A stretch of DNA of 25,756 bases from a virus: positions 1-25,756 of IMG/VR virus record IMGVR_UViG_3300037189_007938. One strand, given 5' to 3'. The first letter of the stretch is position 1, and each line of letters opens with the position of its first letter. Below, piece after piece: positions 6,210 through 19,004 of the stretch. Both the position numbers and the translations under genes were made by a program. Below the pieces are notes generated by a model that saw only the letters and a program-made list of their open reading frames with translations, was not told the origin of the DNA and searched no databases.

Positions 6210-9200
6210 ATGGCAAATTCATCTATTCAAATAAAACGTTCGTTAGTAACAAGCACACCAACTAAACTAAATGTTGGTGAACCAGCATATTCATACACAA
6301 GCAATACATTATTCATTGGTACTCCAGACAGTAATGGTGCGATTGCAATTGGTGGTTATGATTTATTTACTCGTCAAACTTCTGGATATGCACAAGCAAA
6401 CGCTGCATTCATTCGTGCGAACAATTCACTGAATGCAAATGTTGGCGGCACAATCACTGGTGATATTACGATTCAAGGTAATCTAAACATCATTGGTGGT
6501 TCAATTGCAGCAAACGTTCCTACAGTATTGATTGGTGATAATATCATTACGTTGAATACTGCAATCAGTCAGTCGGGTCAGCCGACAATGAATGCTGGTA
6601 TTGAAATTGATCGTGGCGCACAACCGAATGTTTATTTGCTTTGGAATGAGACTGCTGACAAATGGCAATTTACAAATGACGGAACAAGTTACGATGATCT
6701 AGGTGGTTCTGCAACTGCATCATATGCAAACTCAGCATTCATCAAAGCTAACGCAGCATTTGATCATGCAAACGCTTCTTTTGCTGCTGCTAACAATGTA
6801 TTTCCACAAATTCAACCTGCATTCAATACAGCAAATGCAGGATTCATTCATGCAAACTCAGCGTTCATAAAAACAAACGCAGCATTTGATCACGCTAATT
6901 CTGGATTCATCCAAGCTAACTCATCATATCATCATGCAAATGCAGCATACATTCGTGCGAACAATTCGCTCAATGCAAATGTTGGTGGTCTAGTTACAGG
7001 TAATATTTCTGTTGGCGGTACAATTACCCCAAATAGTGATCTCACATGGAATTTAGGTAACACAGAGTATCGTTGGCATTCATTGTTCTTAGGACCAGGC
7101 ACACTGAATATCGGTGGTTTGACGATCAGCAATTCAAGCGGCATAGCAACATTTGATGGTGAAGTTTTAGACTTCACGTTATCAAATACACTTTTACCTA
7201 CTTTTGTTGGCGCAGTTTATCAAGCAAACGCTTCATTCAATCACGCAAATTCTGGATTCATCCAAGCTAACGCTGCATACAATCACGCTAACGGTGGATT
7301 TATCCACGCAAATTCTGCGTTCATAAAAACAAATTCTGCATTCAATCATGCAAATGCCTCTTTTGCAAACGCTAACGGTGCTTTTGCAAAAGCTAATGTA
7401 AGTTATAATCATGCCAACAGTGGATTCATCCAAGCTAATGCTGCATTCAATACAGGTAACGCTGCATTTGTTCGTGCAAACAACTCACTGAATGCAAATG
7501 TTGGTGGTACAATTACTGGCGATGTAATTGTTGTTGGTAATGTTACATCAAACAGTCTGACAACAACAGGCACAAACGGTAGCATTACAGGTGCAAATGC
7601 AATTTTCTCTAACTACATTTTTGCTTCTAATGTAGATTTGAGTATCTTCTCTGCACTAGCTTTTGCAAACGCAAACGCTGGGCTTGCAATGGCAAATGCT
7701 GCATTCGCAAACGCTAACGGTGCTTTTGCTAAAGCAAACGGCGCTTATAATCACGTAAACGTAGCGTTCAATCATGCAAACTCTGGCTTTACTCAAGCTA
7801 ATTCAAGTTTCTTCCGTGCTAATTCTGGATTCATTCAAGCAAACTCTGCATATGCACAAGCAAATGCTGCTTATATTTCACAGAATGCATCTGGTCAATA
7901 TGCAAATGCTGCATACGTTCGTGCAAACAATTCTTTAGATGCAAACGTTGGCGGCACAGTAACTGGTGATGTTCGCATTACTGGTAATCTGACTGTTACT
8001 GGAAATACCACATACGTCAACACACAGACGGTCTTGATCGGTGATAATATCATCACACTCAATGCTGCTATCAATCAAGCATCTGCTCCTGTACTAGATG
8101 CTGGTATTGAAGTTGATCGTGGTTCAGAAGCAAATGTTTATTTACTTTGGAATGAAACTACAAATAAATGGACAGTAACAAATGATGGCGTAGGTTATTT
8201 TGATATTGGTTCTGCTGATGCTGAACACTATGCAAACTCTGCATTCATCAAAGCAAATGCATCTTTTGATCATGCAAATGCTGCATATATCTCACAGAAT
8301 GCAACTGGTCAGTATGCTAATGCTGCGTTTACGGTAGCGAATGGTGCATTCATTCATGCAAACTCTGCATATAAAAGTCAGAACGCAACTGGTCAATATG
8401 CGAATGCTGCATTCATTCACGCAAACTCTGGATTTATTCAAGCTAACGCAGCATTCATTCACGCAAATGCATCATACCAATCACAGAATGCAACTGGTCA
8501 GTATGCAAATGCTGCATTCATTCATGCAAATAGCGCATATCAAAGTCAAAATGCAACTGGTCAATACGCCAATGCTGCATTTGTTCATGCAAACAGTGCA
8601 TATCAATCTCAAAATGCAACCGGTCAATATGCAAATTCTGCTTTTATACACGCAAATTCTGCTTATCAATCTCAGAATGCAACTGGACAATACGCCAATG
8701 CTGCGTTAATTCATGCAAATTCTTCATTTGATTTTGCAAACACAGTAAATGTATTTTCGTATTCAGCATATCATCATGCTAATGCTGCATTTGTTGCAGC
8801 TAACGTTGCCGATAGTAAAGCAGTAGCGTCAGGTAACTACGCAAATGCTGCTTTCATTCATGCAAACTCTGCATTTGAATTAGCAAACGGTACAGCAATT
8901 GCTGCAAATACACCATCGCATGTCGCAAACTCTGCTAGTGTATATGCAAACGGAGCATTCATTGCTGCTAATACAGCCGATTCAAAAGCAATCTCTGCTG
9001 GCTCATATGCAAACTCCGCATTTGCACAATCAAATGTAGCATTCATTCACGCAAATTCTGGTTTTATTCATGCGAATGCAGCATATCAATCTCAGAATGC
9101 GACGGGTCAATATGCTAATGCCGCATTTGTTCGTGCAAACAATTCTATTGATGCAAATGTTGGCGGCACAATTACTGGTAGTTTGACTGTTACTCAAAAT

Positions 9201-11897
9201 CTTTCTGTTGGTAATCTTTTTGTTACTGGTCAAGTTGTTAGTATCAACTCAAGCACTCTAGTTGCAAACGATACTCTTATTGTTCTTGGTTCTGGTAATT
9301 ATTTTAGTGACACAAAAGACTTGGGTTTTGCTGGTCATTATAATGATGGCACAAATGCACATTCTGGTATCATTCGTGATTTTGCAGAAAAAGAATGGTA
9401 TTTGTTTAAAGGATATACACCAGAAGTTGGTGGTAATAATAACGTTGATTTAACTGATCCATCGTTTGAAATTGACACGCTGAATGCTAATTTACGCTCA
9501 ACATTTATCACAATCAAAAAGATTGATATTTTACCTAGAACAAATATCATTTTTGATTTAACAAACTCAGCATTCATTCAAGCAAACTCTGGATATATCC
9601 ACGCTAATGCTGCGTATCTTTCACAGAACGCAACTGGTCAGTATGCTAATGCTGCATTCATTCATGCAAATAGCGCATATCAATCACAGAACGCAACTGG
9701 TCAGTATGCTAATGCCGCGTTTATACACGCAAATAGTGCATTCATACATGCCAATGCTGCTTTTGTATTTGCTAATGATGTCAGTGCTAATGCAAATTCC
9801 GCTGGAACATATGCTAATGCTGCATTTATTCACGCTAACGCTGCTTACCAATCTCAAAATACAACTGGTCAGTATGCAAATGCAGCATTCATTCATGCAA
9901 ACTCAAGCTTTATCCAAGCAAACGCTGTTTTTGTTCACGCTAACGCTGCTTATCAATCTCAAAATACAACTGGTCAGTATGCTAATGATGCATTTATTCA
10001 AGCAAACAGTGGATACAATTTAGCAAACTCAATTGCTAATAATAGTGTCGTTGCTGGCACTGCGAATGTGGCGAATTATGTAAGAGTAGAAGTCAAATCT
10101 GGTGCTAGAAACTATAATGTTGCTCTAGTTGACGCTACAACTGGTAATCTCATCATTGGTGCTAACACAGGACTGACATATCATCCCACACTACAAACAC
10201 TTTCTGCTCAACTAGGATCATTTGGTCAATCTGTAACAACTTCATCTATACTTGCTGCATCACCTACTGGCTTAATATTCAATACAACTGCTACAGCAAT
10301 TCGTATGGGTGGTGCAGCAACGACTGTCAATATTGGTAATGTTGGTGGTACTACAAATGTATTTGGCACACTTGCTGTCAATGGTGTAAGTGTAATTGGA
10401 TTTACACGAGGTGCATATGACACAGGCAACTCAGCATTCATTCAAGCCAACGCATCATTCAATCATGCCAATGCGGCTTTTGTTGCAGCTAATAATGTAT
10501 TTCCACAGATTCAGCCAGCATTTAACACAGCAAACGCTGCATTTATTCGTGCAAACAATTCACTGAATGCAAATGTTGGTGGTCAAATTACTGGTGATCT
10601 TACAATTACCGGTAATCTTGTAATTGTTGGTAATACTGTTTATGCAAACACACAAACTGTTCTGATTGCAGACAATATTATTACACTGAATGCTGCAATT
10701 GATCAGACTGCTGCACCAACACTCAATGCTGGTTTAGAAGTAGATCGTGGTTCTTCTGCAAATGTTTACTTACTCTGGAATGAAAGTGAACTGAAGTGGA
10801 AATATACCACTGATGGTGTTGCATATGAAGACGTTGGTGCGGGTGCAACAGCAACTTATGCAAACTCAGCATTTACGGTAGCCAACGGAGCATTCAATCA
10901 CGCAAACGCTGCATTTATCGCTGCAAATACAGCCGATTCAAAAGCAGTAACAGCAGGTAGTTATGCTAATGCTGCTTTCATTGTCGCAAATGCTGCAACT
11001 TTACAAGCAAATGCAGCATTCAGTCACGCAAATGCTGGCTTCATTCAAGCTAACGCTGCTATACTTCACGCACAGTCTGCATTTTCTGCACAGAACACAA
11101 CTGGTCAATATGCAAACTCTGCATTTGCAACAGCAAACTCTGCTGGTATTGCAGCAAACACGCCAAGTCATGTTGCAAACTCGGCAGCATCTTATGCTAA
11201 TAGCGCATTTATTCATGCAAACTCATCGTTCAATTTTGCAAATGGTGCAGCAGTCGCAGCAAACACGCCAAGTCATGTTGCAAACTCTGCTGCGATTTAT
11301 GCTAACGGCGCTTTTGCTGCTGCTAACGCTGCTAATGCAACAGACGTAACACAAAATAATAGTATTACAGTAGCATTGAATACTGCTAATGCTGCATTCA
11401 TACAAGCTAATACACCGAGTCATGTTGCAAACTCTGCTGCGATTTATGCTAACGGCGCTTTTGCTGCTGCTAACGCTGCTACTGCAACAGACGTAACACA
11501 GAATAATAGTATTGCTGCTGTTTTTGTTCATGCGAACTCATCGTTCAATTTTGCGAACGGTGTTTCAATTGCAGCTAATACACCAAGCCATGTAGCAAAC
11601 TCGGCAGCAATTTATGCTAATGGTGCTTTTGCTGCTGCTAATGCTGCTACTGCTACTGACGCAACACAAAATAATAGTATTACTGCTGCATTTAATACAG
11701 CAAATGCTGCATTCTTGCAGGCAAATACACCAAGCCACGTAGCTAATTCTGCTGCTATTTACGCTAACGGCGCTTTTGCTGCTGCTAACGCTTCTGCTGC
11801 TATTGATGTAACACAAAACAATAGCATTACCGCTGCATTTAGTGCTGCAAACTCTGCAATTGATAGCGCAGTCGCTCTTGCAATTGCTCTTGGATAA
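6210..11897 (+). CDS. Giant heptad-repeat fibre protein (1895 aa), at the wac position
   Basis: Residues 1-60 form a non-repetitive N-terminus (MANSSIQIKRSLVTSTPTKL) likely to anchor the protein. The rest alternates long arrays of a seven-residue motif A-N-x-A-[F/Y]-x-x with globular beta-modules. A boundary element NNSLNANVGG occurs six times (starts near 6420, 6960, 7479, 7927, 9141 and 10555). A ~105-residue module with VLIGDNIITLN and VYLLWNE occurs three times (about 6396-6719, 7905-8230, 10533-10850). One insert (about 9140-9530) is distinct. It ends in heptads without a recognisable tip domain. It is most likely a long homotrimeric fibre. In T4 the gene just upstream of 13 is the whisker fibritin wac, so a neck-whisker analogue is as plausible as a long tail fibre. 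No good Shine-Dalgarno is seen before this ATG. Confidence 0.8.
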   Translation: MANSSIQIKRSLVTSTPTKLNVGEPAYSYTSNTLFIGTPDSNGAIAIGGYDLFTRQTSGYAQANAAFIRANNSLNANVGGTITGDITIQGNLNIIGGSIAANVPTVLIGDNIITLNTAISQSGQPTMNAGIEIDRGAQPNVYLLWNETADKWQFTNDGTSYDDLGGSATASYANSAFIKANAAFDHANASFAAANNVFPQIQPAFNTANAGFIHANSAFIKTNAAFDHANSGFIQANSSYHHANAAYIRANNSLNANVGGLVTGNISVGGTITPNSDLTWNLGNTEYRWHSLFLGPGTLNIGGLTISNSSGIATFDGEVLDFTLSNTLLPTFVGAVYQANASFNHANSGFIQANAAYNHANGGFIHANSAFIKTNSAFNHANASFANANGAFAKANVSYNHANSGFIQANAAFNTGNAAFVRANNSLNANVGGTITGDVIVVGNVTSNSLTTTGTNGSITGANAIFSNYIFASNVDLSIFSALAFANANAGLAMANAAFANANGAFAKANGAYNHVNVAFNHANSGFTQANSSFFRANSGFIQANSAYAQANAAYISQNASGQYANAAYVRANNSLDANVGGTVTGDVRITGNLTVTGNTTYVNTQTVLIGDNIITLNAAINQASAPVLDAGIEVDRGSEANVYLLWNETTNKWTVTNDGVGYFDIGSADAEHYANSAFIKANASFDHANAAYISQNATGQYANAAFTVANGAFIHANSAYKSQNATGQYANAAFIHANSGFIQANAAFIHANASYQSQNATGQYANAAFIHANSAYQSQNATGQYANAAFVHANSAYQSQNATGQYANSAFIHANSAYQSQNATGQYANAALIHANSSFDFANTVNVFSYSAYHHANAAFVAANVADSKAVASGNYANAAFIHANSAFELANGTAIAANTPSHVANSASVYANGAFIAANTADSKAISAGSYANSAFAQSNVAFIHANSGFIHANAAYQSQNATGQYANAAFVRANNSIDANVGGTITGSLTVTQNLSVGNLFVTGQVVSINSSTLVANDTLIVLGSGNYFSDTKDLGFAGHYNDGTNAHSGIIRDFAEKEWYLFKGYTPEVGGNNNVDLTDPSFEIDTLNANLRSTFITIKKIDILPRTNIIFDLTNSAFIQANSGYIHANAAYLSQNATGQYANAAFIHANSAYQSQNATGQYANAAFIHANSAFIHANAAFVFANDVSANANSAGTYANAAFIHANAAYQSQNTTGQYANAAFIHANSSFIQANAVFVHANAAYQSQNTTGQYANDAFIQANSGYNLANSIANNSVVAGTANVANYVRVEVKSGARNYNVALVDATTGNLIIGANTGLTYHPTLQTLSAQLGSFGQSVTTSSILAASPTGLIFNTTATAIRMGGAATTVNIGNVGGTTNVFGTLAVNGVSVIGFTRGAYDTGNSAFIQANASFNHANAAFVAANNVFPQIQPAFNTANAAFIRANNSLNANVGGQITGDLTITGNLVIVGNTVYANTQTVLIADNIITLNAAIDQTAAPTLNAGLEVDRGSSANVYLLWNESELKWKYTTDGVAYEDVGAGATATYANSAFTVANGAFNHANAAFIAANTADSKAVTAGSYANAAFIVANAATLQANAAFSHANAGFIQANAAILHAQSAFSAQNTTGQYANSAFATANSAGIAANTPSHVANSAASYANSAFIHANSSFNFANGAAVAANTPSHVANSAAIYANGAFAAANAANATDVTQNNSITVALNTANAAFIQANTPSHVANSAAIYANGAFAAANAATATDVTQNNSIAAVFVHANSSFNFANGVSIAANTPSHVANSAAIYANGAFAAANAATATDATQNNSITAAFNTANAAFLQANTPSHVANSAAIYANGAFAAANASAAIDVTQNNSITAAFSAANSAIDSAVALAIALG
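6396..6719 (+). repeat. Fibre beta-module, copy 1 of 3
   Basis: Residues ~63-170 of the fibre. It begins with NNSLNANVGGTITGD, followed by VLIGDNIITLN, GIEIDRG and VYLLWNETADKWQFTNDG. The same order of motifs is repeated at about 7905-8230 and 10533-10850 with moderate divergence. A 'VLIGDNIITLN...YLLWNE' module of this kind occurs in other large phage fibres. Confidence 0.8.
7905..8230 (+). repeat. Fibre beta-module, copy 2 of 3
   Basis: Carries NNSLDANVGGTVTGD, VLIGDNIITLNAAI, GIEVDRGSEANVYLLWNE and NKWTVTNDGVGYFDIG. It is closer to copy 3 than to copy 1 in the segment before VLIGDN (both have 'TGN..Y.NTQT'). Confidence 0.8.
8284..8712 (+). repeat. Heptad repeat array 1 in the fibre gene (63-base period)
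   Basis: Near-identical copies of a unit containing the codons for QNATGQY recur at 8295, 8379, 8484, 8547, 8610 and 8673. The spacings are 84, 105, 63, 63 and 63 bases, which are 4, 5, 3, 3 and 3 heptads. The core period is 21 residues made of three heptads, and DNA identity between units is high. Confidence 0.9.
9553..10005 (+). repeat. Heptad repeat array 2 in the fibre gene
   Basis: A second array of the same 21-residue unit (AFIHAN, AYQSQN, TGQYAN) as in array 1. Variants SAFIHAN and AVFVHAN and an insert with FANDVSANANSAGTY break the 63-base spacing. It is high-identity at DNA level with array 1, which makes it a substrate for recombination and a possible assembly hazard. Confidence 0.85.
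10533..10850 (+). repeat. Fibre beta-module, copy 3 of 3
   Basis: Carries NNSLNANVGGQITGD, VLIADNIITLNAAI, GLEVDRGSSANVYLLWNE and WKYTTDGVAYEDVG. It is flanked upstream by an element with VFPQIQPAFNTANA that also occurs downstream of copy 1 (about 6800-6840), so the shared segment is longer than the module alone. Confidence 0.8.
11160..11870 (+). repeat. C-terminal super-repeat of the fibre (TPSHVAN units)
   Basis: Units carrying TPSHVANSA, IYANGAFAAAN and DVTQNNSI recur with the Thr codon of TPSHVAN at 11160, 11265, 11412, 11580 and 11727. The spacings are 105, 147, 168 and 147 bases, i.e. 35, 49, 56 and 49 residues, all whole numbers of heptads. An isolated copy occurs at 8910. Confidence 0.9.
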
Positions 11898-12873: not shown

Positions 12874-13782
12874 TTGGCTACCAACTTCTATTTTAATAAT
12901 TTCCCATCTCGGCTAGGTGACGTTAGTGCAGTCACGCCAGAGCAGTTGCTTGTCGAAAATTTGGTAATTGAGGCTCTACAGATTTATGGCATGGATGCAT
13001 ATTACCTACCAAGAACAACAAGAGATGAAGTTGATTATTTGTTTGGAGAAGACACACTCAAAGAGTATCGCACAGCTCATCCTATTGAAATGTATCTTGA
13101 AAACTTTACAGGAATGGAAGGTGAAAGTGATTTTATTTCCAAGTTTGGTTTGGAAATTAAAAGCGAAATTACTTTATTAGTTTCAAGACTTCGTTTCAGA
13201 TATACAGTTAATGGTTACACTCGTCCACGTGAGGGCGATCTTGTTTACATTCCAATGGTAACAGGATTATTTGAAATTACTCATGTTGAGCATGAAAAAG
13301 ATCAAGCAATGTTTTATACATTAGGAAGAGGTCGTGGCGGTAACGTATATGTTTATGGATTGAGATTAAAACAATATGTCTTCTCTTCAGAGATTATTCA
13401 AACAGGCGTTGCTGAAATTGATAACGCTATGAGAGTTTACTATCCAAGAACTCGTATTTCTCTTACTTCTGGTGGAACAGGTAAGTTTGTAAATGATGAA
13501 ATTGTATATCAAGGTTCTAGCCTTGCTACAGCAACGGCACAAGCACTTGTTCTTGATTTTGTTCCGAACACACATATTGATATTTACAGAACTCAAGGTA
13601 GCTTTATATCAACAACAAACGTAAAAGGCAATACATCAAATGCAAGTTGGGGAATTACACTTGTTTCTGATGCTGCCACACAGAACAATGCATTTGAAGA
13701 CATTATTGACAACGCTCGGATTGAAGCTGCAAGTGATGGTATTATTGACTTCTCCGAAACAAACCCTTTTGGTGAGCCATAA
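12874..13782 (+). CDS. gp14: Neck protein gp14 with extra C-terminal beta-domain
   Basis: Partner of gp13 at the head-tail neck. The start is TTG (12874), three bases after the gp13 stop, and the protein then begins MATNFYFNN as gp14 proteins do. Conserved parts are LLVENLVIEALQIYGMDAYY, FGEDTLKEY, GMEGESDFISKFGL and TRPREGDLVYIPM...LFEITHVEHE. Residues ~194-268 form a compact domain with GTGKFVNDEIVYQG and SFISTTNVKGNTSNASWG, absent from the shorter T4 gp14 (about 256 residues) and similar to a segment in gp15 next door. The C-terminus (DNARIEAASDGIIDFSETNPFG) is again gp14-like. The stop overlaps the next start (TAATG). Confidence 0.92.
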   Translation: MATNFYFNNFPSRLGDVSAVTPEQLLVENLVIEALQIYGMDAYYLPRTTRDEVDYLFGEDTLKEYRTAHPIEMYLENFTGMEGESDFISKFGLEIKSEITLLVSRLRFRYTVNGYTRPREGDLVYIPMVTGLFEITHVEHEKDQAMFYTLGRGRGGNVYVYGLRLKQYVFSSEIIQTGVAEIDNAMRVYYPRTRISLTSGGTGKFVNDEIVYQGSSLATATAQALVLDFVPNTHIDIYRTQGSFISTTNVKGNTSNASWGITLVSDAATQNNAFEDIIDNARIEAASDGIIDFSETNPFGEP

Positions 13783-14780
13783 TGCTAGGTAACGCACAAT
13801 TCTATCATCGTACCATCAGAAAGATGGTCGTGACTTTTGGAACACTCTTCAATGATATTGAGATTGTTCGGTACACACAAGCAGGTGCGCCAAAAGAAAA
13901 ACTTAAAATTCCATTATCATATGGAGCAAAAGAAAGATATCTGACACGATTAACATCTAATCCTAATTTGATAAAAACAATTAATGTTCTTGTTCCAAGA
14001 ATGTCATTTAATTTAGAAAACTTGGAATATGATGTTAGCCGTAAACAGATATCAACCCTTCGTAATTTTTCAAACGATACAGACTCGACTGTAAAGACAC
14101 AGTTTGTTCCTGTACCATATAATTATGAATTTTCTCTATCAATATATGTAAGAAATACAGAAGATGGCACACAAATATTGGAACAGATATTGCCATTTTT
14201 TACGCCAGATTTTAGTGTTGTCGTGGATTTTATTCCTTCAATGAATCAGAAATATACTGTTCCTATTATATTAAATTCGGTATCATCAACGGTTGACTAT
14301 GAAGGATCTGATGAAGATGGTACAACACGCTTGATCGTTTGGGATTTAAACTTCACAGCAAAAAGCTTTATCTGGCCACCAGTCAAAACTGGTGATCTTA
14401 TCACACGTGCGAATACTCAATTGTTTATTGATTTGACGAATAATGCTGAACAAAAAGCTTATGTTGATTTTGCAAATGGAAACGGAGTGTTCACTCAAGG
14501 AGAAACTGTTCGTGATGCTGCAAATAATTTTGTTGGAACTGTTGACTATTTCTCTAATACGAATACTGGAATAATTATTGTTACTGGAGCAAATAAGGCA
14601 CTTGAAACACGTTATGTTCTTACTGGCGATTATTCTAACTCAAGATATGTTATAGAATCTTTAGAGCAAAACTCTATAAAGGCAGTCAAAGTTATAACCG
14701 AACCAGATCCATTAACAGCTGGTCCCGAAGAAGACTTTGGATTTACTGAAACTATTATTACTTATCCTAATACATTATAA
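13782..14780 (+). CDS. gp15: Tail completion and sheath stabiliser gp15
   Basis: Forms the terminator ring at the head-proximal end of the tail. The protein begins MLGNAQFYHRTIRKMVVTFG and includes GTLFNDIEIVR, KIPLSYGAKERYL and LVPRMSFNLENLEYDVSRKQ. These are characteristic of gp15 in T4-like phages. At 332 residues it is longer than T4 gp15 (about 272). The excess is largely a C-terminal domain at ~225-295 (GVFTQGETVRDAANNFVGTV, DYSNSRYVIESL) that resembles the additional domain of gp14. Start and stop both overlap neighbours as TAATG, so genes 14-15-16 are translationally coupled. Confidence 0.92.
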   Translation: MLGNAQFYHRTIRKMVVTFGTLFNDIEIVRYTQAGAPKEKLKIPLSYGAKERYLTRLTSNPNLIKTINVLVPRMSFNLENLEYDVSRKQISTLRNFSNDTDSTVKTQFVPVPYNYEFSLSIYVRNTEDGTQILEQILPFFTPDFSVVVDFIPSMNQKYTVPIILNSVSSTVDYEGSDEDGTTRLIVWDLNFTAKSFIWPPVKTGDLITRANTQLFIDLTNNAEQKAYVDFANGNGVFTQGETVRDAANNFVGTVDYFSNTNTGIIIVTGANKALETRYVLTGDYSNSRYVIESLEQNSIKAVKVITEPDPLTAGPEEDFGFTETIITYPNTL

Positions 14781-15178
14781 TGAAAAAGTTAAATGAAAAT
14801 TTGTCAGAAATATTTGACATAGAGCCTATTGAAATAAAAGAAAATCGGACAACCGAAGTTGTTGTGGTTGAAACTAGTAATGATATTGATTCAGACACCA
14901 GTTTTGCCAGAGAAAATATTAAACAACTTATTACTAAAGGTAACAAATCACTTGAGGAGCTGTCTACAGTTGCGAATCAATCTGAATCACCACGTGCATA
15001 TGAAGTTCTTGCTACGATGATGAAAAATCTAGCGGACATGAACAAAGATTTATTGGAACTTCAAAAACGAAAAAGAGATTTGCAGCCAAAAGAGTCAACG
15101 CAAAATCTGAATATAGATAAAGCAGTCTTTGTTGGTTCAACAGCCGAACTTGTAAAAATGATTAAATCAAACAAATAA
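14780..15178 (+). CDS. gp16: Terminase small subunit gp16
   Basis: Regulates DNA recognition and the activity of the gp17 packaging motor. It is 132 residues, a little shorter than T4 gp16 (about 164). The first ~45 residues are acidic and low-complexity. The central part (residues ~45-105) is predicted helical, with ARENIKQLITKGNKSLEELS and YEVLATMMKNLADMNKDLLE followed by LQKRKRDLQ. This fits the coiled-coil core that makes gp16 rings. The C-terminus contains KAVFVGSTAELVKMIKS, a motif found in gp16 homologues. In T4 gene 17 follows directly. Here a Dps-like gene lies between. Confidence 0.88.
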   Translation: MKKLNENLSEIFDIEPIEIKENRTTEVVVVETSNDIDSDTSFARENIKQLITKGNKSLEELSTVANQSESPRAYEVLATMMKNLADMNKDLLELQKRKRDLQPKESTQNLNIDKAVFVGSTAELVKMIKSNK

Positions 15179-15186
15179 TTGGAGAA

Positions 15187-15624
15187 ATGATGGAACAGTT
15201 AATAGAACAAATGAAAGTTATTCTTGGTACGAACTTTGGTTTGTATTTCAAAGCACACAATTTTCACTGGAACGTAGAGGGTCCTAACTTTGCGGAGTAT
15301 CACAACTTTTTAGGTGCATTCTACGAAGCAGTGTTTGACCAAACAGATTCAATCGCGGAACATATTCGTGCATTGGGTTCATATACTCCAACATCATTAG
15401 GAAGAATGATGGAGTTATCAAAAGTCGTTGATTTGGTAGCCATTCCTTCACCGCTTATTATGATGAGTGAACTTGCAAATGATAACGATAAGTTTATCAT
15501 GGAACTTCGTGCAGGAATTGCACTTGCTGATGCTGCTGATGAACCAGCAGTAGGAAACTTTTTACAAGACATTTTAGATGCTCATCAAAAACACGGATGG
15601 ATGTTGAAGAGTTTTACAAGATAA
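15187..15624 (+). CDS. dps: Dps-type ferritin-like protein inserted between terminase genes
   Basis: Dps proteins form 12-subunit shells that oxidise and store iron and protect DNA from peroxide. This is 145 residues. If the second Met at 15190 is used it is 144, and this is favoured because GGAG at 15181-15184 is only two bases from the first ATG but five from the second. Dps signature elements are LYFKAHNFHWNVEGPNF, then YHNFLGAFYEAVFDQTDSIA and EHIRALGSYTP, with a C-terminal helix DAHQKHGWMLKSF. Aligning to E. coli Dps gives His27 (H51), His39 (H63), Asp54 (D78) and Glu58 (E82). The position of D67 is Gly43. The Lys/Arg-rich DNA-binding N-tail of E. coli Dps is absent. It lies 8 bases after gp16 and 3 before gp17. 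Confidence 0.92.
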   Translation: MMEQLIEQMKVILGTNFGLYFKAHNFHWNVEGPNFAEYHNFLGAFYEAVFDQTDSIAEHIRALGSYTPTSLGRMMELSKVVDLVAIPSPLIMMSELANDNDKFIMELRAGIALADAADEPAVGNFLQDILDAHQKHGWMLKSFTR

Positions 15625-15627
15625 AAG

Positions 15628-17259
15628 ATGGAAGACGGATATCTTGGTAATGCAAGGCTTAAAAAAGTCGGTGTTGAATTATCCTATACAAAAGAACAGT
15701 TAGAAGAAATTGTAAAGTGTACTGAAGATCCAGTATATTTTATACGTAACTATGTAAAGATTGTCAACGTTGACCGTGGTCTTGTTCCATTTGAAATGTG
15801 GGACTTTCAAGAAAACATGGTCCGCACGTTTCATGACAATCGTTTTTGCATTGCAAAAATGCCACGACAGGTTGGTAAGACAACAACAACTGTTGGCTAT
15901 ATGCTTTGGTCAGCATTATTCAATGAAGATTATGTCATTGGTATTCTTGCAAACAAACTTCAACTTGCACAAGATATTCTAGGTAAGATTCAAAAAGCTT
16001 ATGAGTATCTTCCATCTTGGTTGCAACAAGGCATCATCAATTGGAATAAACGTTCAATTGAATTAGAGAATGGCTCAAAGATTTTTGCGTATGCAACATC
16101 TTCAGCAGGTGTTCGTGGTGGTACATACAATCTGATTTTTCTTGATGAGTTTGCGTTCGTTCCACACAACATGGCTGTAGACTTCTTTACTTCTACTTAT
16201 CCTGTTATCTCATCTGGTAAAACGTCAAAAGTAATTATTGTTTCTACTCCAAATGGTCTAAATCTGTTCTATAAAATGTGGACAGATGCTATTGAGAATC
16301 GCTCCACATACAAAACGCTTGAAGTTCACTGGTCAATGGTGCCAGGGCGTGACGAAAAGTGGAGAGAAGAAACGATCCGAAACACGTCGGAAGAACAGTT
16401 CAGACAAGAGTTTGAAACGGAGTTCATCGGTTCAGCAGCGACACTTATTTCTGGTGCTAAACTTCGTTCTCTGGCATTTCATGATCCAATCCGAATTGAA
16501 GATGATGGTAATTTATCGATATATGAAGATCCAAAACCAGGAAGAATATATATTGCGACTGTAGACTGTTCCGAAGGTGTAAGTTTAGACTATCACACAA
16601 TCAATATTATTGATGCTACTGAAGCGCCTTACAGACAAGTTGCGTTGTATAGAAACAATAAACTGCCTCTTCTGTTTTTGCCTACTGTTATATACGCTCT
16701 AGCAAATAGGTATAATGAAGCTTTTGTTTTGATAGAAACCAATAACATAGGTCAACAAGTTGTGGACATTCTACACTATGATCTTGAATATGGAAATATC
16801 TACAGAATTGAGCATCATCATATCAAAGGACAAAGCATTTCTGCTGGTTTTAAACGATCGGTTTCTTTTGGTATTAAGACTACTAAATCAGTCAAGAAAA
16901 TTGGTTGTGCTAACCTAAAGACGCTGATTGAAAATGATAAGTTAATTATCAACGATTTTAATACGATTGCAGAACTGAATACATTTGTTCGCACTAAAGA
17001 CTCATATAAAGCCGAAGAGGGTAATAATGACGATATTGTCATGGGATTGGTTACTTTTGCTTGGCTGACAGCACAGACTTTTTTCAAAGATGAGACTCGG
17101 ATTGACATTCGTAAAGTTATGTTGGATGAGCAAAATATGCTCGGAGAAGAAAGTATGCTTCCTTTTGGATTTATTGAAGACGGATTAGCAAGGGAAGCAG
17201 AAATTGCTGATGGAGATATGTGGGAGCCGCCGGCTGGCTATTTATCATCAAGTTTCTAA
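15628..17259 (+). CDS. gp17: Terminase large subunit gp17 (ATPase and nuclease)
   Basis: The ATP-driven motor that cuts and packages phage DNA through the gp20 portal. It is 543 residues against about 610 in T4. The ATPase part shows a Walker A at 79-86 (PRQVGKTT, equivalent to the T4 SRQLGKT region), Walker B with catalytic Glu at 168-175 (NLIFLDEF) and a coupling motif STPNG at 206-210. The nuclease part shows the RNase H-fold acids: Asp313 in IATVDCSEG, Glu370 in FVLIETNN and Asp468/Asp469 in GNNDDIVMG. All catalytic positions are intact. It starts three bases after the Dps gene and ends 56 bases before gene 18. Confidence 0.97.
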   Translation: MEDGYLGNARLKKVGVELSYTKEQLEEIVKCTEDPVYFIRNYVKIVNVDRGLVPFEMWDFQENMVRTFHDNRFCIAKMPRQVGKTTTTVGYMLWSALFNEDYVIGILANKLQLAQDILGKIQKAYEYLPSWLQQGIINWNKRSIELENGSKIFAYATSSAGVRGGTYNLIFLDEFAFVPHNMAVDFFTSTYPVISSGKTSKVIIVSTPNGLNLFYKMWTDAIENRSTYKTLEVHWSMVPGRDEKWREETIRNTSEEQFRQEFETEFIGSAATLISGAKLRSLAFHDPIRIEDDGNLSIYEDPKPGRIYIATVDCSEGVSLDYHTINIIDATEAPYRQVALYRNNKLPLLFLPTVIYALANRYNEAFVLIETNNIGQQVVDILHYDLEYGNIYRIEHHHIKGQSISAGFKRSVSFGIKTTKSVKKIGCANLKTLIENDKLIINDFNTIAELNTFVRTKDSYKAEEGNNDDIVMGLVTFAWLTAQTFFKDETRIDIRKVMLDEQNMLGEESMLPFGFIEDGLAREAEIADGDMWEPPAGYLSSSF

Positions 17260-17315: not shown

Positions 17316-19004
17316 ATGGCATTTCAATTATCACCTGGAGTAAATGTATCAGAGATCGATCTGACTACAGTTATTCCTTCAGTAGGCACTTCTACAGGTG
17401 CTTTCGTAGGACCTTTTGCTTGGGGACCATGTGGCGAAGTTACTACTATTTCTGACGAAGTTCGTCTAGCAAGCACCTTTGGTAATCCAAACAGCGATAA
17501 TTATGAATACTGGTTCTCGGCAGCAAACTTTTTAGCTTATGGTAATAATCTAAAAATCGTTCGTGCTTTTAATGCATCAACAACACTAAATGCAACAGCA
17601 AACGGAAGTGGTCTTCTGATTAAAAATCAAGATGACTATGTAGAAAATCATACAGGTTATTCAGCAAACTCTTACAACGGTTTTGGCGCACGTTGGGCAG
17701 GTGCTTTAGGTAACTCACTCAGCGTTTCTATGGCAGATGCAAACTCATATAGCACATGGGCATATAAGACACAATTCACATCTGCTCCTTCTACATCATC
17801 ATATGTTGCAAAGAAAGGCGGTTCTTTTGACGAAGTTCACGTAATTGTTGTTGACGAAGATGGTCTGTTTACAGGAACAAAAGGAACAGTTCTGGAAAAG
17901 TATCCTTTCGTTTCAAAAGCTTCTGATGCAAGAGATGACTCTGGTAACTCAAGTTACTATAAGAATGCTATTCAAAATCAATCTCAGTACATCTGGTGGC
18001 TGTCACACCCAACACAAAACACTACAGGTGGAACAGCTTGGGGTTCAACAGCAAATGCATCATCATTTGCAAACACAACTGGTAATGTATCATTCTCATT
18101 ATCAGGTGGTGCAGATGGTACAGTAGGTACATCACAAATTACAACTGGTTGGGATAGATTTAAGAATGCGGAAGCAGTAGATATTTCTCTGTGCGTAACT
18201 GGTACAGGCAACTCTACAATTGCAGCATACGTTATCGATAATATAGCAGGCACACGTAAAGACTGCGTTGCATTCGTTTCACCAACAAAAGCAAGCGTTG
18301 TTGACAATGCGGGTAGCGAAGTTTCAGACATTACTACTTTCCGCAACGGTCTAACATCTTCGTCATATGCTGTGTTGGATTCAGGATACAAATATCAGTA
18401 CGACAAATACAATGATGTGTATCGTTGGATACCACTGAACGGTGACATTGCTGGTCTATGCGTAAGAACAGATCAAGAGCGTGACCCATGGTTCTCACCA
18501 GGTGGTTTAAATCGTGGCGTTATCAAGAACGTTGTAAAACTTGCTTGGAATCCACTAAAATCAGAACGTGATTCGTTATATTCTGTTGGCGTAAATCCTG
18601 TTGTTTCTTTCCCAGGAGAAGGCACAGTTCTGTTTGGTGATAAAACATTACTGAGCAAGCCAAGTGCATTTGATCGTATCAATGTTCGTCGTTTATTCAT
18701 CACTCTTGAAAAAGCAATTTCACGTGCAGCACGTTTCTCGTTGTTTGAATTTAATGATCAATTCACACGCGCACAGTTTGTTGCTCTAGTTGAGCCATTC
18801 TTACGTGACGTTCAAGGTCGTCGTGGTATCACTGATTACCGTGTTGTGTGTGACGAAACAAACAACACTGGAGAAGTTATTGATCGTAATGAGTTTGTTG
18901 GTGACATCTATATTAAACCAGCACGTTCTATCAACTTCATTCAATTGAACTTCGTAGCAGTTCGTACAGGAGTATCATTTAATGAAGTCGTAGGTGCGGC
19001 ATAA
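17316..19004 (+). CDS. gp18: Tail sheath protein gp18
   Basis: Contractile sheath subunit that surrounds the gp19 tube and drives DNA injection. It is 562 residues, against 659 in T4. The N-terminal QLSPGVNVSEIDLTTVIPSV is the diagnostic start of T4-like sheaths, followed by GAFVGPFAWGP and SAANFLAYGNNLKIVRAF. The C-terminal domain has WFSPGGLNRG, VVSFPGEGTVLFGDKTL, the FDRINVRRLFITLEKAI helix and the IKPARSINFIQLNFVAVRTG ending, all conserved. The middle (about residues 105-300) is more variable, as expected for the exposed domains. The ribosome site is AAGGAG at 17303-17308 (perfect). Confidence 0.97.
   Translation: MAFQLSPGVNVSEIDLTTVIPSVGTSTGAFVGPFAWGPCGEVTTISDEVRLASTFGNPNSDNYEYWFSAANFLAYGNNLKIVRAFNASTTLNATANGSGLLIKNQDDYVENHTGYSANSYNGFGARWAGALGNSLSVSMADANSYSTWAYKTQFTSAPSTSSYVAKKGGSFDEVHVIVVDEDGLFTGTKGTVLEKYPFVSKASDARDDSGNSSYYKNAIQNQSQYIWWLSHPTQNTTGGTAWGSTANASSFANTTGNVSFSLSGGADGTVGTSQITTGWDRFKNAEAVDISLCVTGTGNSTIAAYVIDNIAGTRKDCVAFVSPTKASVVDNAGSEVSDITTFRNGLTSSSYAVLDSGYKYQYDKYNDVYRWIPLNGDIAGLCVRTDQERDPWFSPGGLNRGVIKNVVKLAWNPLKSERDSLYSVGVNPVVSFPGEGTVLFGDKTLLSKPSAFDRINVRRLFITLEKAISRAARFSLFEFNDQFTRAQFVALVEPFLRDVQGRRGITDYRVVCDETNNTGEVIDRNEFVGDIYIKPARSINFIQLNFVAVRTGVSFNEVVGAA

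Follow-up and report, generated by a model that had tools for sequence, protein, structure and literature searches.

The window, that is, the whole 25,756-nucleotide stretch of viral DNA that was analysed (IMG/VR record IMGVR_UViG_3300037189_007938), carries a T4-like structural module with the gene order gp14, gp13, gp15, gp16, dps, gp17, gp18, gp19, gp20, prohead protease and scaffold. The dps gene, an ORF for a Dps/mini-ferritin of 145 aa recognised from profile, structure and sequence evidence (positions 15187-15624), is separated from gp16 by 8 bases (15179-15186), with a Shine-Dalgarno-like GGAG just 5' of the dps ATG, and from gp17 by 3 bases (15625-15627). The small terminase gene gp16 (14780-15178; PF11053, 1.9e-11; PHROG 445) and the large terminase gene gp17 (15628-17259; PF03237, 1e-30; PF17289) thus form the left and right edges of the slot occupied by dps, which itself lies within the interval that starts with the tail sheath stabiliser gene gp15 (13782-14780; PF16724, 4.7e-62) and ends with the tail sheath gene gp18 (17316-19004; PF04984/PF17482). 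All these features are on the plus strand, and the coordinates agree with the sequence-only reading, which had placed a complete Dps-like ORF 8 bases past gp16 and 3 bases before gp17. The nearest annotated phage homologues of the window gp17 belong to Kyanoviridae (~53-55% identical), and the source phage is a lake-type, T4-like relative of this family. A T4-type late promoter, TATAAATA, was absent just before dps, and its two matches in the window (21307 and 23663) are at chance level; from its place in the structural operon, dps is probably co-transcribed with the late genes, in line with the late-stage expression proposed earlier. Upstream of gp14, a 1895 aa ORF (6210-11897) had no confident Pfam match. 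The gp14-gp20 proteins of contig L070 are identical to those of the window over 10 kb, and this contig probably derives from the window phage itself or from one very close to it.

The product of the window ORF is a genuine member of the Dps (mini-ferritin) family, as judged from profile searches and a predicted structure. It matches PF00210 over its full length (2e-20; 73.6 bits against a cut-off of 24.5), PHROG 3636 (2e-31) and Dps chains in the PDB (best 5.5e-19), as well as the NCBIfam Dps equivalog models, the latter below their cut-offs. The AlphaFold monomer model (pLDDT 96.2, pTM 0.91) is a four-helix ferritin-like monomer with a short BC-loop helix (residues 71-77), and Foldseek aligned it to Dps structures with TM scores of 0.93-0.96, so that the ferritin-like fold, on which the earlier proposal depended, stands. 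Whole-length fold matches (TM 0.93-0.95) include Dps of Brevibacillus brevis (1N1Q), Pseudomonas aeruginosa PA0962 (8FF9), Bacillus anthracis Dlp-1/2 and Staphylococcus aureus 2D5K, which have four ferroxidase ligands in common with the window Dps and, like it, need no long basic tail; however, the window Dps is only ~27-31% identical to these proteins and has Gly where they have the site-B Asp/Glu. The similarity in base composition between dps and its neighbours was also borne out: GC and GC3 are 0.377 and 0.31 for dps and 0.372 and 0.29 for gp17, and dps codon usage is in line with that of the neighbouring genes (z 0.6).

The ferroxidase ligands of the window Dps are H27, H39, D54 and E58, all of which are invariant across 158 distinct viral and 80 cellular sequences. 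The protein departs from the canonical five-ligand ferroxidase centre (His, His, Asp plus Asp, Glu) at the fifth position, H39+4, which is G43. This site-B position (E. coli position 67) is Asp/Glu in just 14 of the 116 slot sequences, being usually Gly or Asn in the slot relatives of both Dps lineages found there, and Glu in 59 of the 80 sampled cellular relatives. The site-B Asp/Glu residue helps to bind iron at site B, and it is also replaced in Nostoc Dps4 (NpDps4, Asn67) and Thermosynechococcus DpsA; for NpDps4, O2 was found to serve as the oxidant of Fe2+, with no sign of H2O2 use (PMC6675082). Unlike those two proteins, which have the substitutes His78 and His164, the window Dps retains Asp54, and inspection by eye did not recognise a substitute His at its 164 position. 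With Gly in place of the site-B carboxylate, the window Dps may have a weak or modified ferroxidase activity; we infer that iron oxidation is retained in altered form. Alternatively, the site could have decayed or been repurposed, leaving a scaffold or metal binder, perhaps one that deprives a host defence of iron or one that uses O2. The prevalence of Gly or Asn at site B beside four invariant ligands in both slot lineages, together with the NpDps4 precedent, speaks for such a change, but the invariance of those same four ligands indicates that metal chemistry was kept, and we regard this alternative as unlikely. The altered site poses a concrete question for biochemistry. As for DNA, the window Dps starts in helix A, its first four residues include no Lys or Arg, and it stops with helix D; neither the sequence nor the model has a basic N- or C-terminal tail of the E. 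coli type. Given the lack of a tail past the helices and the acidic pI of 4.9, protection through E. coli-style DNA coating is unlikely.

The arrangement is widespread: within one gp17 clade, ~180 viral loci have dps in the gp16-gp17 gap, contrary to the possibility that homologues would never adjoin terminase genes, although the IMG/VR records behind this and the following counts may all be fragments. A scan of viral contigs with Dps as the query returned 80 loci, in which dps was always between gp16 and gp17 when either gene was on the contig, while nine more distant Dps were located elsewhere; as these loci were selected for Dps, scans led by gp17 give the fairer count. With the gp17 of a relative, dps adjoined gp17 in 63 of 74 decidable loci, and gp16 and gp17 were 1-16 bases apart in the other 11. 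With the gp17 of pelagiphage Mosig, dps was found in none of 80 loci; contigs that covered both genes had either other ORFs or nothing between them. Across all loci, 129 distinct gp17 sequences were accompanied by dps, 43 by other inserts and 29 by an empty gap. The gp17 tree groups the dps loci in a single clade with good support, in which several members without dps are interspersed. The gene is under strong purifying selection, with a median pairwise dN/dS among relatives of 0.074, compared with 0.046 for gp17, 0.092 for gp19 and 0.123 for gp16. This value, together with the GC content and codon usage matching those of the neighbours, marks dps as a long-resident, selected gene.

Other phages use the same gap for unrelated genes. 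The gp16-gp17 slot of HTVC008M contains PhyH and tryptophan halogenase genes, that of Mosig one small ORF, and S-CAM3 has genes for the sugar dehydrogenases G6PDH/6PGDH and small ORFs upstream of gp17; on other contigs the gap holds 2OG-Fe oxygenases, an SNase or DUF5661 proteins. The interval between g15 and g18 is known as a hyperplastic region of cyanomyoviruses, where auxiliary genes lie among structural genes (PMC2984593; Millard 2009 reviewed there). Situated between g15 and g18 and replaced or absent in relatives, the window dps belongs to the T4-like version of this region: it occupies the same spot in the structural module and is likewise an auxiliary insert, but the cargo of the window clade is a single Dps, which the majority of one gp17 clade has kept. 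The turnover is seen most directly in loci L281 (empty) and L283 (dps), with flanks 93.6% and 95.4% identical, which differ by the clean presence or absence of dps from the gp16 stop to the gp17 start. Two Dps lineages, A and B, occur in the slot, both of them among phages with gp17 90% identical; two independent entries into the slot were considered, but a single origin is not rejected (p-AU 0.375), and the data fit one origin as well as two. In four loci (L043, L044, L219, L220), dps and gp17 are separated by an ORF of 190 aa that has a NUMOD3 motif and begins in a GIY-YIG-like manner (YVYQH...FYVGKG). It probably encodes a homing endonuclease, judging by these motifs, and such an ORF beside dps is a plausible means of slot exchange. 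Inserts of several hundred bases are present between gp19 and gp20 in L042 and L058 and between gp17 and gp18 in L194, L202 and L206; these are maybe further homing endonucleases.

Since the slot is empty or filled with unrelated cargo in relatives, the neighbourhood of dps is evidence of late-operon cargo rather than of a part in the packaging motor. These comparisons, with clean dps-less neighbours among them, do not support the earlier claim of a placement too specific for a cargo insertion, nor the packaging role at which it hinted. A Dps working with the motor, by binding gp16, gp17 or the concatemer, would be in keeping with adjacency conserved in one clade and with the strength of purifying selection; yet close relatives lack dps at this position, related Dps are encoded away from the terminase genes in dozens of other phages, and the protein is acidic and devoid of basic tails, making this explanation highly improbable. 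More generally, where a site is a cargo slot, even one in a packaging operon, the neighbours of a gene say little by themselves about its function. Still, Dps is far commoner than other cargo in one gp17 clade, and the slot may therefore not be neutral for Dps.

Internal, capsid-targeted proteins of T4 carry an N-terminal capsid-targeting sequence, MK.F..FI.E(A). Neither the window Dps nor any of 229 viral Dps has this motif, leaving virion packaging, one of the earlier suggestions, without sequence support. Carriage in the capsid interior or the tail, with Dps guarding packaged DNA or acting as iron bait for uptake by the host (Ferrojan horse), would accord with the ferritin-like protein detected by mass spectrometry in Vi01-like phage preparations, but TonB/FeoB mutants were infected normally in the same study (PMC10892097). 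T4-like capsid-targeting starts do occur in DUF5661-type proteins of the gap and, in other phages, in proteins encoded close to Dps, and the BFVD lists Dps domains in proteins that bear the name 'prohead protease'; no fused Dps ORF was present among 80 further Dps loci. On balance, carriage in the virion is unlikely. The BFVD entries in question (A0A6J7WPK9, A0A6J7XDU5 and A0A6J7WIS1) are predicted viral proteins of 333-763 aa and offer a possible capsid link, by name; fusions of this kind were sought in the 80 loci and not found there. Starts of the form MK.F..FI.EA/ES were observed in proteins of the gp16-gp17 gap in L351, L359, L362 and L363 and in Dps-neighbour proteins in L072, L078, L374, L380 and L405, some of which end in a Cys-containing tail (YCARSSGQ...NYWSRRAWNC). 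By this signature, they may be internal virion proteins.

In a phylogenetic tree, all viral Dps are on one side and 20 cellular Dps on the other, suggesting that, for the limited set of cellular Dps sampled, the viral proteins are a separate branch. With the same limit on sampling, recent capture of dps from a host, a question the sequence-only reading had left to phylogeny, was rejected: the best cellular matches are 30-40% identical, the best plasmid match is 38% identical, and the viral branch is separate. A cellular Dps, from Massilia, retrieved no relative when used to scan viral contigs. The marker for a cyanobacterial host, psbA, had no match in the Dps-clade contigs, its positive control matching in L363, nor did the actinobacterial marker WhiB; as the larger contigs lack psbA, the Dps clade probably does not consist of cyanophages. 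Phage Dps are already annotated in GenBank for Synechococcus phages S-SRM01 and S-EIVl and Salmonella phages 7-11/SE131, and PHROG 3636 carries the annotation 'DNA binding protein'. These Dps are phage-encoded like that of the window, but are at most 33% identical to it over the full length, and the S-SRM01 gene, unlike the window dps, is not adjacent to terminase genes. Phage dps genes and the g15-g18 slot are thus known. Literature searches on viral Dps found little. Measured against the papers searched, what is new is how widely dps occurs between gp16 and gp17, how the arrangement turns over as a module, that viral Dps branch separately from the cellular ones (of which few were sampled), and that a ferroxidase ligand has been lost. 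What viral Dps is used for becomes testable. Dps of the viral branch are also encoded on contigs L500, L501, L512 and L449 (235-345 kb), so that the branch probably extends to jumbo phages.

The fold, four of the five ligands, the conserved placement, purifying selection, modular gain and loss, and rubrerythrin in some relatives are the observations from which a role can be proposed. We think it probable that the window gene is auxiliary cargo of the gp16-gp17 slot, serving in late protection against iron and oxidants rather than in DNA coating or terminase work. Expressed late, as its position inside the structural operon suggests, the product would most likely assemble into a 12-mer cage; this cage would take up Fe2+ in the infected cell and oxidise it, presumably with some oxidant preference, and the removal of iron and oxidants could, late in infection, keep Fenton damage to phage DNA low, both while it replicates and once it is packaged. 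It is also conceivable, with low probability, that a long-lived phage Dps branch with an altered iron site and a dedicated late slot performs a task absent in cellular Dps, for instance removing iron by means of O2 during packaging, or delivering an iron cage along with the virion.

Rubrerythrins are diiron proteins of a family linked to peroxide, and their presence in some relatives fits the iron and oxidant role proposed for Dps. Among 23 large contigs, all possibly incomplete, 19 have no rubrerythrin, which counts against this role, and four, which carry Dps, encode one (L435:6734-7162, L436:7179-7613, L437:8080-8517 and L438:6012-6446). On three of these four contigs (G003, G006 and G011), dps is in the gp16-gp17 slot.
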